35,356 nt of DNA, from contig JAFTQR010000035.1 of assembly GCA_017462645.1 (NCBI GenBank), positions 1-35,356 of the forward strand, read 5' to 3'. The notes beneath the pieces were generated by a model. The model saw only the letters and a list, made by a program, of their open reading frames with translations, was not told where the DNA came from and did not search any database. Source of the stretch: Acholeplasmatales bacterium. Lineage in GTDB: Bacteria > Bacillota_I > Bacilli_A > Acholeplasmatales > Anaeroplasmataceae. Every line of letters starts with the position of its first letter. Within the stretch, counting starts at the first letter, position 1. Shown one piece after another: positions 3,002 to 24,354 of the stretch. The position numbers and the translations under genes were made by a program.

Positions 3002-3892
3002 ATGGAAGATCTAAAATACAAAAATAAATCCGAGGGATTTAAGGCATCCATATTAGGCTTTCTAATAGGATTAGCCGTTATAATCCCTGGGATTAGCGGT
3101 TCTACAATATCTATAATGTTTAAGCTATATGAAAAGCTTTTATACGCAATGGGAAATATATTTAAAAAATTTAAGGCATGCTTTATCTTTTTATTACCAA
3201 TTGTTATAGGAGCGGTAGTAGGATTATTAGTTGGCTTTTTAACAATAAGAGAGCTATTAAACACAATACCATTCCTTGTAATATTGCTTTTCATAGGTTT
3301 AATGATTGGAGCCTTCCCTGTTGTAAATAATGAAATAAAGGGAGAAGCTAAAACACCAAAAAGAATAATATTATATATTTTAGGTCTAATAATTCCAGTC
3401 GCTTTAGCATTATCATCTCTTTATCTTTTTAAGGGTGATAGAAGCTTAGCTGATATAGGAATTATGGATTATATAATATTCTTTATACTTGGCTATTTAA
3501 TAAGTGTTACACAGCTAGTTCCTGGCTTAAGTGCGACAGCACTATTAATGGCTTTAGGCTATTTTAATGTTATTATTAACGCAATAAGTGTAAGCTATCT
3601 ATTAGATAATTTAAATGTATTATTCTTATTTGTAATAATGTTTATTGGTGTATTAGTTGGTTTAATAACATTCTCAAAACTAATGAATTTTGGCTTTGCT
3701 AAAGCGAAAAAGACATTATATTTTTTAATAAATGGCTTATCCTTAGGCTCAATTATAGCAATGTTTATGACAGAGGATATTATTGCCTGCTATAAGAATA
3801 TGGAGGCTTGGCAGCTAATTTGTGGTATCGTTTTAATGGTTTTAGGCTTTGGAATATCATATTATTTTGCAAAAAAAGAGATAAAAGGTTAG
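3002..3892 (+). CDS. DUF368 polyprenyl-phosphate translocase (PopT-like)
   Basis: This 296-residue integral membrane protein has about eight to nine hydrophobic segments. Both DUF368 repeat signatures are visible: IIPGISGST with P29-G30, and LVPGLSAT with P174. DUF368 proteins (PopT) were shown in other bacteria to return undecaprenyl phosphate from the outer to the inner leaflet for reuse in wall synthesis. The ATG lies 10 bases after the ATPase stop, with AAGGA overlapping that stop and no terminator between them. It should therefore share the ATPase promoter and riboswitch. A Mn2+-controlled lipid-carrier recycler would be unusual. A strong terminator follows directly. The family assignment is firm and substrate identity is inferred from the family. 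Confidence 0.88.
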   Translation: MEDLKYKNKSEGFKASILGFLIGLAVIIPGISGSTISIMFKLYEKLLYAMGNIFKKFKACFIFLLPIVIGAVVGLLVGFLTIRELLNTIPFLVILLFIGLMIGAFPVVNNEIKGEAKTPKRIILYILGLIIPVALALSSLYLFKGDRSLADIGIMDYIIFFILGYLISVTQLVPGLSATALLMALGYFNVIINAISVSYLLDNLNVLFLFVIMFIGVLVGLITFSKLMNFGFAKAKKTLYFLINGLSLGSIIAMFMTEDIIACYKNMEAWQLICGIVLMVLGFGISYYFAKKEIKG

Positions 3893-22357: not shown

Positions 22358-22386
22358 TTGCTCGAAATGATAAAATACATTATAAT
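22358..22386 (+). promoter_or_regulatory. Promoter of the second riboswitch / PiT operon
   Basis: TTGCTC (22358-22363) and a perfect TATAAT (22381-22386) have a 17-base spacer. The predicted start near 22393 lies about 20 bases before the aptamer, the same geometry as the first riboswitch promoter. Confidence 0.8.
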
Positions 22387-22411
22387 AAAGATAAATATGT
22401 ATATTCATCTG

Positions 22412-22507
22412 AAAAAGGGAGTAGAAGCCATATTAACATATGGAATGTTTTCGTCAGTACAGTGTAATTAAAATACACTCGGATACATTTTGAATTTCAA
22501 GACTTTT
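22412..22507 (+). ncRNA. Second yybP-ykoY-type (Mn2+) riboswitch, divergent variant
   Basis: The order of landmarks matches the first riboswitch: AAAAAGGGAGUAG, P2 (CCATAT/ATATGG), P3 (AATGT/ACATT) enclosing UCGUCA, a GTGTA/TACAC subhairpin and UCGG, then P4 and UCAAGACUUUU closing P1. Differences are GGGAGUAGA for GGGGAGUAGC and UCGG for CCGG. The L1 GGGAGUAG and L3 GUCA elements that form the metal sites are kept. A terminator at 22499-22538 shares the P1 3' strand, as in the first copy. The downstream genes are a phosphate transporter and its partner, which is not a context I know as standard for this family. Confidence 0.8.
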
Positions 22508-22538
22508 ATCTAATAAATGATAGAAGTCTTTATTTTTT
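22499..22538 (+). terminator. Expression platform of the second riboswitch
   Basis: AAGACTTTTATC (22499-22510) pairs with GATAGAAGTCTT (22519-22530) with one G-U pair, followed by TATTTTTT. It is mutually exclusive with aptamer P1. Confidence 0.88.
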
Positions 22539-22617
22539 AGATGGATTAGATGGTAAATTTTGTCAAATATTTAAAAAGATAATATTTCCATTATATATTT
22601 AGTAAAGGAGAATAAAA

Positions 22618-23673
22618 ATGAATTTATTGGATTTTTTTAATCTATTAATAGATAAGCCGATTTTGTTAGTTGTTGTATTACTAGTATCGGCAGTTATCAT
22701 GATTAATGGATGGACTGATGCCCCTAATGCTATTGCTACATGTGTTTCAACAAGAGCAATGTCTCCTAGAGCTGCAATAATAATGGCAGTTATATTTAAT
22801 TTCTTGGGAGTATTAGTAATGACAATGATTAGTAGTAGCGTTACATCTACAATTTCTAATATGGGTAATTTTAACGGTGACTCTCACCAGCAGCTGATAG
22901 CGATATGTGCTGGTATGGTAGGAATTGTATTATGGGCGACTGGTGCGTGGTTTTTTGGTATTCCAACGAGTGAAAGTCATGCGTTAATTGCTGGTATTGC
23001 AGGTGCTGCAGTAGCGTTAAATGGATTAGATGGTTTTAGTGGAACAGGATCAGCGTGGCTTAATGTATTGTATGGTATTCTAATATCTACATTAGTAGGC
23101 TTTGGTCTTTCATTCGTAATTACAAAACTAGTACGAATGGTATTTAGAAAAGTTAATAGACAAAAAGCTAATCGTGTATTTGCGAAAGCTCAAATTTTTG
23201 GTGGTGCATCTATGGCTTTCATGCATGGCGCACAAGATGGCTTAAAATTTATGGGTGTATTTTTACTAGCTACAAGCTTTGTAGAACCTAGTGTAGTAAG
23301 TGCAAGTGGCAGCTTTAATATACCAGTTTGGTTAATGATTTATTGTTCATTAATTATGGGTCTTGGTACTTCAATTGGTGGATATAAAATCATTAAAACA
23401 GTAGGTATGGATATGGTAAAGCTTGAACAATACCAAGGATTTGTATCAGATGTTACAGCTGCAAGCTGTTTATTCTGTTCATCTTTAGCAGGTATTCCAG
23501 TTTCAACAACACATATGAAATCAACATCAATAATGGGTGTTGGTTCTGCTAAAAGATTTAAATCAGTAAATTGGAGCGTTGTTAAGGAAATGGTTATGAC
23601 ATGGGTTTTAACATTCCCAGGCTGTGGTTTATGTGGATTTTTAGTAGCAAAATTATTCTTGATGATATTTTAG
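22618..23673 (+). CDS. PiT-family inorganic phosphate transporter
   Basis: This 351-residue membrane protein has about ten helices in two inverted repeats. The PiT signatures are NGWTDAPNAIAT near residue 31 and GIPVSTTHMKSTSIMG in the second half, with MHGAQDGLKF between. PiT carriers symport phosphate, often as a neutral metal-phosphate complex with Mg2+, Ca2+, Mn2+ or Co2+, using the proton or sodium gradient. The gene is preceded by AAAGGAG and by a yybP-ykoY-type riboswitch. It is followed after 13 bases by a DUF47 partner, the usual pairing. The riboswitch suggests expression rises with Mn2+. The direction of coupling between Mn2+ and phosphate cannot be told from sequence. Confidence 0.92.
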   Translation: MNLLDFFNLLIDKPILLVVVLLVSAVIMINGWTDAPNAIATCVSTRAMSPRAAIIMAVIFNFLGVLVMTMISSSVTSTISNMGNFNGDSHQQLIAICAGMVGIVLWATGAWFFGIPTSESHALIAGIAGAAVALNGLDGFSGTGSAWLNVLYGILISTLVGFGLSFVITKLVRMVFRKVNRQKANRVFAKAQIFGGASMAFMHGAQDGLKFMGVFLLATSFVEPSVVSASGSFNIPVWLMIYCSLIMGLGTSIGGYKIIKTVGMDMVKLEQYQGFVSDVTAASCLFCSSLAGIPVSTTHMKSTSIMGVGSAKRFKSVNWSVVKEMVMTWVLTFPGCGLCGFLVAKLFLMIF

Positions 23674-23686
23674 GAGGTAATCTAAC

Positions 23687-24310
23687 ATGAAAAAGAAAGA
23701 AGTAAATTATTATTTTCAAACATTTACAAATTTATTTAATTTTACAATTGATGCTGCGAATTATTTAGAAAAGGTAGTATTAAATTTTAATGGTGGAATA
23801 ACTGATGAACAAAGAGATGAAATGCATACGATTGAGCATAATGCTGATTTATGCTTACATGAAGCATTAGCTAAATTAGCTAAGGAATTTATTACACCAA
23901 TTGAAAACTCTGACATTTTAGCTATTGTTAAAAAGATTGATGATGCAACAGATACAATTGAGGATGTATTAATTAAATTATATATTCGTAATGTTCAAAA
24001 GCTTACACCTTATGCTAAGGACTTTGTTAATATTATTAAGAGAGAATGTGAAGTATTATCTACTGTATTAACAGAATTCCCTAACTTTAAGAAATCTAGC
24101 ATTATTCGTGATAAGATAATGGAAGTATTATCTATTGAAGAAGAGGGCGATAAACTTTATATGTCTGCAATTAAGGAATTATATCAAACAGAAAATGATC
24201 CAAAAGAGCTTTATATTATGGAAGATGTAATATCTTCATTTGAAGCTTGTTGTGATATAATTGAAGAAATTGCACAAGTTATTGATGAAGCTGTAATGAA
24301 AAATATTTAA
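23687..24310 (+). CDS. DUF47 PhoU-like accessory protein of the PiT transporter
   Basis: This 207-residue, all-helical cytoplasmic protein belongs to the DUF47 family, related to PhoU and regularly encoded beside PiT carriers. Features seen are an N-terminal FQTFTNLFNFTIDAANYL helix, an acidic metal-binding-like EHNAD segment, FITPIENSDILAI and DDATDTIEDVL. PhoU-like proteins bind metal clusters through acidic motifs and modulate phosphate transport. TAGGAGGTAA overlaps the end of the PiT gene, so the two are co-transcribed under the same riboswitch. A terminator follows. Confidence 0.9.
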   Translation: MKKKEVNYYFQTFTNLFNFTIDAANYLEKVVLNFNGGITDEQRDEMHTIEHNADLCLHEALAKLAKEFITPIENSDILAIVKKIDDATDTIEDVLIKLYIRNVQKLTPYAKDFVNIIKRECEVLSTVLTEFPNFKKSSIIRDKIMEVLSIEEEGDKLYMSAIKELYQTENDPKELYIMEDVISSFEACCDIIEEIAQVIDEAVMKNI

Positions 24311-24318
24311 TAGCTAAT

Positions 24319-24354
24319 AACGTCTACATCATATGATGTTGACGTTTTTTTTTC
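24319..24354 (+). terminator. Intrinsic terminator after the PiT-DUF47 operon
   Basis: AACGTC-T-ACATCAT (24319-24332) and its mirror to 24346 pair with one mismatch, followed by a long T run. Confidence 0.9.

Follow-up and report, generated by a model that had tools for sequence, protein, structure and literature searches.

An operon encoding a PiT-family phosphate transporter and its DUF47 partner lies directly downstream of a leader that is, judged from its sequence, a genuine, P4-less member of the yybP-ykoY (Mn2+ riboswitch) class. The locus occupies positions 22358–24354 of the window, the 35,356-nucleotide stretch of DNA that was analyzed as a whole, and consists of a promoter-like site, a structured leader, a 12-bp terminator, the PiT gene and the DUF47 gene, all on the forward strand. 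The leader probably functions as an ON riboswitch of the Mn2+ class on a transferred PiT–DUF47 operon; PiT would adjust phosphate or metal-phosphate balance under Mn2+ stress. The preliminary description did not regard this pairing as an established member of the regulon, and no paper reporting a Mn2+ riboswitch–PiT pairing was found in the literature collection searched. Phosphate transport tied to Mn stress via a riboswitch was likewise not found reported and represents a rare pairing.

The leader begins downstream of a promoter-like site (22358–22386; sequence reading) with a −35 element TTGCTC (22358–22363), a 17-nt spacer and a −10 element TATAAT (22381–22386). The promoter had been called complete, which holds for the perfect −10 element and the spacing but not for the poor −35 element (3/6 matches), and the site was missed by a consensus promoter scan because of the weak −35 element. 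The aptamer (22409–22509), delimited with a hold-out covariance model (R1), is closed by the P1 switch helix, in which the 5′ strand AAAAG (22413–22417) pairs with CUUUU (22503–22507). P1 is followed by the L1 loop GGAGUAG (22418–22424), a P2 hairpin formed by CCAUAU and AUAUGG with a UAAC loop (22428–22433/22438–22443) and a P3 arm (22444–22489) composed of P3 (22444–22453/22480–22489) and P3b (22461–22466/22474–22479). Shorter forms of P2, CCAU..AUGG and CCAU..GUGG, occur in the leaders that precede the exchanger and Trk genes of this genome. The P3 arm carries the L3 element UCGUCA (22451–22456). Both L1 and L3, which had been recognized earlier, are invariant across a 41-leader alignment, as are CGUCA (22452–22456) and CGG (22480–22482). 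A Mn-sensing adenosine has been described for the riboswitch class (PMC6754395), and by analogy the L3 element of the PiT leader presumably holds this residue. None of 200 shuffled sequences folds as well as the PiT leader (z −3.84).

The aptamer runs into an intrinsic terminator (22499–22538) with a 12-bp stem (22499–22510/22519–22530; −13.4 kcal/mol) and a subsequent T-run, TATTTTTT. Downstream of the terminator, the AAAGGAG ribosome-binding site (RBS; 22604–22610; sequence reading) precedes the ATG of the PiT gene (22618–23673; PHO4 domain, PF01384, E 1e-80), which is followed by the gene for the DUF47/PhoU-like partner (23687–24310; PF01865, E 6e-17) and a terminator-like hairpin with a T-run at the operon end (24318–24354; sequence reading). 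No gene intervenes between the leader and the PiT ATG, as previously noted, and the positions of the terminator, RBS and ATG are appropriate; the leader very likely controls PiT–DUF47. Alternatively, the aptamer could be a decayed duplicate, with PiT expressed mainly from a promoter located after the terminator. A promoter-like sequence with 9 of 12 matches at 22570–22599 and a P1 core of only 5 bp would fit such decay, but promoter-like sites are fewer here than in shuffled sequence, all invariant letters of the aptamer are kept and its hold-out score is high, which makes this explanation quite improbable.

The RF00080 covariance model, which the preliminary description had put forward as the check on the class, finds no match in the 390 nt covering the PiT leader, even at E ≤ 10; that test alone would have wrongly failed a genuine member. 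Accepted yybP-ykoY members in the same taxonomic family score merely 20–35 bits with RF00080 against its gathering cut-off of 45 bits, so the cut-off is not discriminating here and RF00080 was rejected as the arbiter. In the RF00080 consensus structure as printed, P1 is unpaired. R1, built from 41 aligned leaders with the PiT, exchanger and Trk leaders of the source genome excluded, scores the PiT leader at 55.3 bits, with E values of 3.7e-14 for the window and 9.7e-13 for the genome, and it also picks up leaders upstream of MntP and P-type ATPase genes. RF00080 misses most leaders of this family, detecting them in 6 of 55 genomes versus 53 of 55 with the lineage model. A search of the genome with the pattern GGGAGTAGN{10,40}CGTCA gave four matches versus none in the reversed control, corresponding to the ATPase leader, the PiT leader and two leaders on contig C41 (exchanger and TrkH). 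In the order, 74 of 160 genomes contained matches to a stricter pattern with CGTCANNAC, and control matches were few. Two further pattern matches, L157 and L159, are without the 3′ element and resemble chance hits within coding sequence.

Covariation supports the proposed helices. P1, P3 and P3b covary strongly across 88 leaders, with standard pairs in 90.9% of the pair cells versus 64.8% in shuffled and at most 47.5% in slid alignments and a covariation score of 0.667 versus 0.199 in the control, a strength that is somewhat inflated by fitting the 88-leader alignment to the model. Six of the seven P1 pairs show two-sided changes in this test, and P3 and P3b are paired in 92.6% and 98.1% of cells, respectively, with the end pair of P3b being G–C in 76 leaders and A–U in 11. 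In a plain MAFFT alignment of 41 leaders, the P1 pair 8–110 is G–C in 24 and A–U in 17 leaders and is broken in none. The switch helix not only covaries but is also placed to compete with the terminator. The 3′ strand of P1 lies wholly within the 5′ arm of the 12-bp terminator, bearing out the mutually exclusive arrangement proposed earlier, and P1 overlaps the terminator in the same manner in 115 of 123 leaders examined. Mn2+ stabilizes P1.1 and blocks terminator formation in the riboswitch class (PMC6754395, PMC11087558), and by this published mechanism an ON switch is expected for the PiT leader. Without metal, the P1 3′ strand would pair into the terminator and transcription would stop before PiT. 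Mn2+ bound between L1 and L3 would hold P1 closed, the terminator could not form and the PiT–DUF47 operon would be transcribed.

The P4 helix is the part of the expected anatomy that is not supported. P1, P2 and P3 are present as had been described, but the P4 region of the PiT leader, a 16-nt linker, forms at best a 4-bp UUGA/UCAA hairpin, and the four-way junction that includes P4 is not found. The nearest leaders come from the same genus and contain an unpaired linker of ∼16 nt between P3 and P1 without P4. A P4 hairpin is present in leaders of other genera of the taxonomic family and in the ATPase leader of the window. P4 is also missing in many family leaders before ordinary Mn genes, and its absence is therefore treated as a subtype difference; in sequence terms, the PiT leader is assigned to a P4-less subtype typical of its own genus and one neighboring genus. 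The missing P4, unlike in the solved four-way-junction aptamers, may alter ligand affinity or selectivity.

The yybP-ykoY class normally turns on Mn exporters, and MntP and P-type ATPases are its usual targets. The first genes downstream of the ∼120 R1-matched leaders encode P-type ATPases (40), MntP (PF02659; 22), Na/Ca exchangers (20) and SPFH proteins (20; 13 flotillin-like and 7 other), while TrkH, PiT, NptA and small membrane or zinc-ribbon proteins are among the single-case targets, PiT occurring once. The exchanger and MntP share one operon at three loci. Because MntP and P-type ATPases are the usual Mn2+ riboswitch targets, Mn2+ is most likely the ligand of the PiT leader. The earlier proposal of Mn2+ as the ligand thereby gains indirect support, from the presence of the same leaders before MntP, P-type ATPases and Na/Ca exchangers and from the retained L1/L3 core. 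Two other readings of the P4-less leaders were considered. It is conceivable, although tentative, that the P4-less branch runs a broad Mn/cation stress regulon in the genus comprising exchangers, SPFH/flotillin proteins, Trk and PiT or NptA phosphate transporters, with the phosphate transporters detoxifying Mn2+ by moving or trapping Mn-phosphate. It is unlikely that a shift in specificity has made the subtype a sensor of a different cation state (Ca2+, Na+/K+ imbalance or general divalent stress), with PiT, Trk, exchanger and SPFH genes forming an ion and membrane stress regulon. A shift would accord with the missing P4, with TrkH, Na/Ca exchangers and flotillin-like SPFH proteins not being classical Mn exporters and with a Mn/Ca-responsive class member in S. 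pneumoniae (PMC11434433). However, the core of L1 and L3 retains its letters, P-type ATPase genes of this taxonomic family are also found behind P4-less leaders, and the shared exchanger–MntP operons are under leaders of the wider family. SPFH loci under leaders include L171, L173, L176, L179, L260 and L261 among others, and L183, L185, L186, L190, L192 and L238; no report of SPFH as a Mn2+ riboswitch target was found. Small membrane and zinc-ribbon genes of unassigned function are found under leaders in the same genus (L166, L167, L170, L172, L175, L178 and L237).

The PiT protein belongs to the PHO4 family by its domain, its DUF47 neighbor and its motifs. It contains GWTDAPN, PTSESH, HGAQD and PVSTTH at the positions of the family motifs GxxDxAN, PxSxxH, HGxND and PxSTTH, and among solved structures it is closest to the phosphate transporter 6L85. 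HGAQD is read throughout the PiT clade, versus the published HGxND (N to Q). The DUF47 protein resembles PhoU-like 3L39, and DUF47 adjoins PiT in 96 of 102 PiT loci. None of the 26 other genomes examined from the genus contains PiT. The nearest copies of PiT, from another family of the class and from an Erysipelotrichaceae bin, are 89% and 84% identical, respectively, and the three copies group together with a support of 100/97; the DUF47 neighbors of the two nearest copies are 69% and 63% identical. DNA similarity to the relative's operon becomes detectable 28 bases upstream of PiT. The leader was not found before PiT at any of 102 other PiT loci, which comprise 22 class-level genomes and 80 named loci, with L109 and L110 checked by pattern only. 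The suggested comparison of leaders across PiT–DUF47 operons of related genomes was thus not feasible, and covariation was evaluated over the leader family. Since PiT is missing in the 26 sister species, matches a gene of another family at 89% and is not preceded by the leader at the 102 loci, the simplest reading of these sequences is that PiT–DUF47 was transferred and then captured under a resident leader. The operon would have been gained by horizontal transfer and then joined to a copy of a leader that already served metal and ion genes of the lineage (Na/Ca exchanger, Trk and P-type ATPase). In a Lachnospiraceae bin (L045, 5686–6078), a Mn-type leader and then a P-type ATPase gene come immediately after PiT–DUF47; this 29-bit leader lies between DUF47 and the ATPase gene and was rejected as a case of PiT control. 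TrkH genes occur near PiT in five Clostridia-type loci (L040, L050, L052, L065 and L067), with a P-type ATPase also nearby in L052. The TrkH of the source genome is at most 74% identical to the TrkH beside PiT in five other genomes and may have a history similar to that of PiT.

The PiT pairing is seen in one genome, a 64%-complete draft bin, and the junction could in principle reflect an assembly chimera or mis-binning that joined a leader-bearing contig end to a foreign PiT operon. The lack of PiT in the other examined genomes of the genus, its 89% identity to the gene of another family and the onset of similarity 28 bases before PiT are compatible with such an artifact. The sequences flanking the operon speak against it: HydB downstream of PiT is 59% identical to that of genome G192 and 57% identical to that of the genus and is not close to the other family, and the tetranucleotide profiles on either side correlate at 0.92–0.98, by which mis-binning from a G192-like donor was judged unlikely. 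Moreover, leaders matching that of PiT occur on a second contig of the genome, and the terminator, RBS and ATG of PiT fit together properly. An artifact is thus very improbable. The two leaders on the other contig (C41, 18732–20001; L118/L119) are 1.2 kb apart and precede genes for a Na/Ca exchanger (PF01699) and TrkH (PF02386); their identities to the PiT leader are 74% (exchanger) and 67% (Trk).

Transfer followed by capture under the resident leader would place phosphate transport under Mn2+ control. PiT proteins can move metal-phosphate. The most likely purpose is that PiT would shift phosphate or metal-phosphate balance under Mn2+ stress, so that phosphate complexes Mn2+ or Mn-phosphate is transported. 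Mn2+ could be sequestered in the cell by phosphate, or Mn-phosphate could be imported or exported through PiT. As a counterpoint, phosphate import is not an obvious response to excess Mn2+. A second phosphate transporter, NptA, is non-homologous to PiT and has its own PhoU domain. In sister species G008, a 58-bit leader precedes an exchanger–NptA operon, and in sister species G003, a weaker leader (30 bits), with UCGACA replacing UCGUCA, precedes NptA–exchanger. This recurring phosphate link is suggestive only; general control of NptA by leaders in the genus was rejected, as only 2 of 30 NptA loci have one. DrPitA of Deinococcus radiodurans, likewise a PiT-family protein, enriches Mn and phosphate and thereby links the two, but its report mentions no riboswitch and no direct Mn2+ control (PMC13188870). 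By analogy, the NptA leaders of the two sister species and DrPitA lend some weight to the proposed buffering or Mn-phosphate purpose.

The PiT leader shares the P1 switch helix, L1 GGAGUAG, L3 CGUCA, P2/P3 arms, P1-competing terminator and expected ON logic with the RF00080 representatives of the yybP-ykoY class (L. lactis yoaB and X. oryzae). It differs in having three helices without a conserved P4 rather than a four-way junction, in preceding PiT–DUF47 rather than a Mn exporter gene and in falling below Rfam detection. The Na+-I riboswitch (DUF1646 motif) is also an ion-sensing leader for cation transporters, some annotated for potassium, but is a different RNA class, while the L1/L3 core of the PiT leader is that of yybP-ykoY. 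The PiT leader and its relatives would extend the Mn2+ riboswitch regulon from exporters to phosphate transport, K+ uptake and SPFH membrane proteins. The locus illustrates that an operon acquired by transfer can be captured by a riboswitch already in residence, and it provides a direct way of testing the proposed bacterial Mn-phosphate link by genetics.

The window contains a second yybP-ykoY leader that was absent from the preliminary description. This four-helix leader (241–342, or 241–372 with its terminator; forward strand), which is part of the R1 training set and scores 23 bits with RF00080 at 236–329, precedes a P-type Ca/Mn ATPase gene (394–2991), a normal target of the class. It resembles the Mn/Ca-responsive riboswitch of S. 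pneumoniae mgtA (P-type ATPase), which belongs to the same class and has a cation target but controls an efflux ATPase, whereas the PiT leader precedes a phosphate transporter gene. A gene for a PopT-like polyprenyl-phosphate transporter (3002–3892) follows the P-type Ca/Mn ATPase gene.
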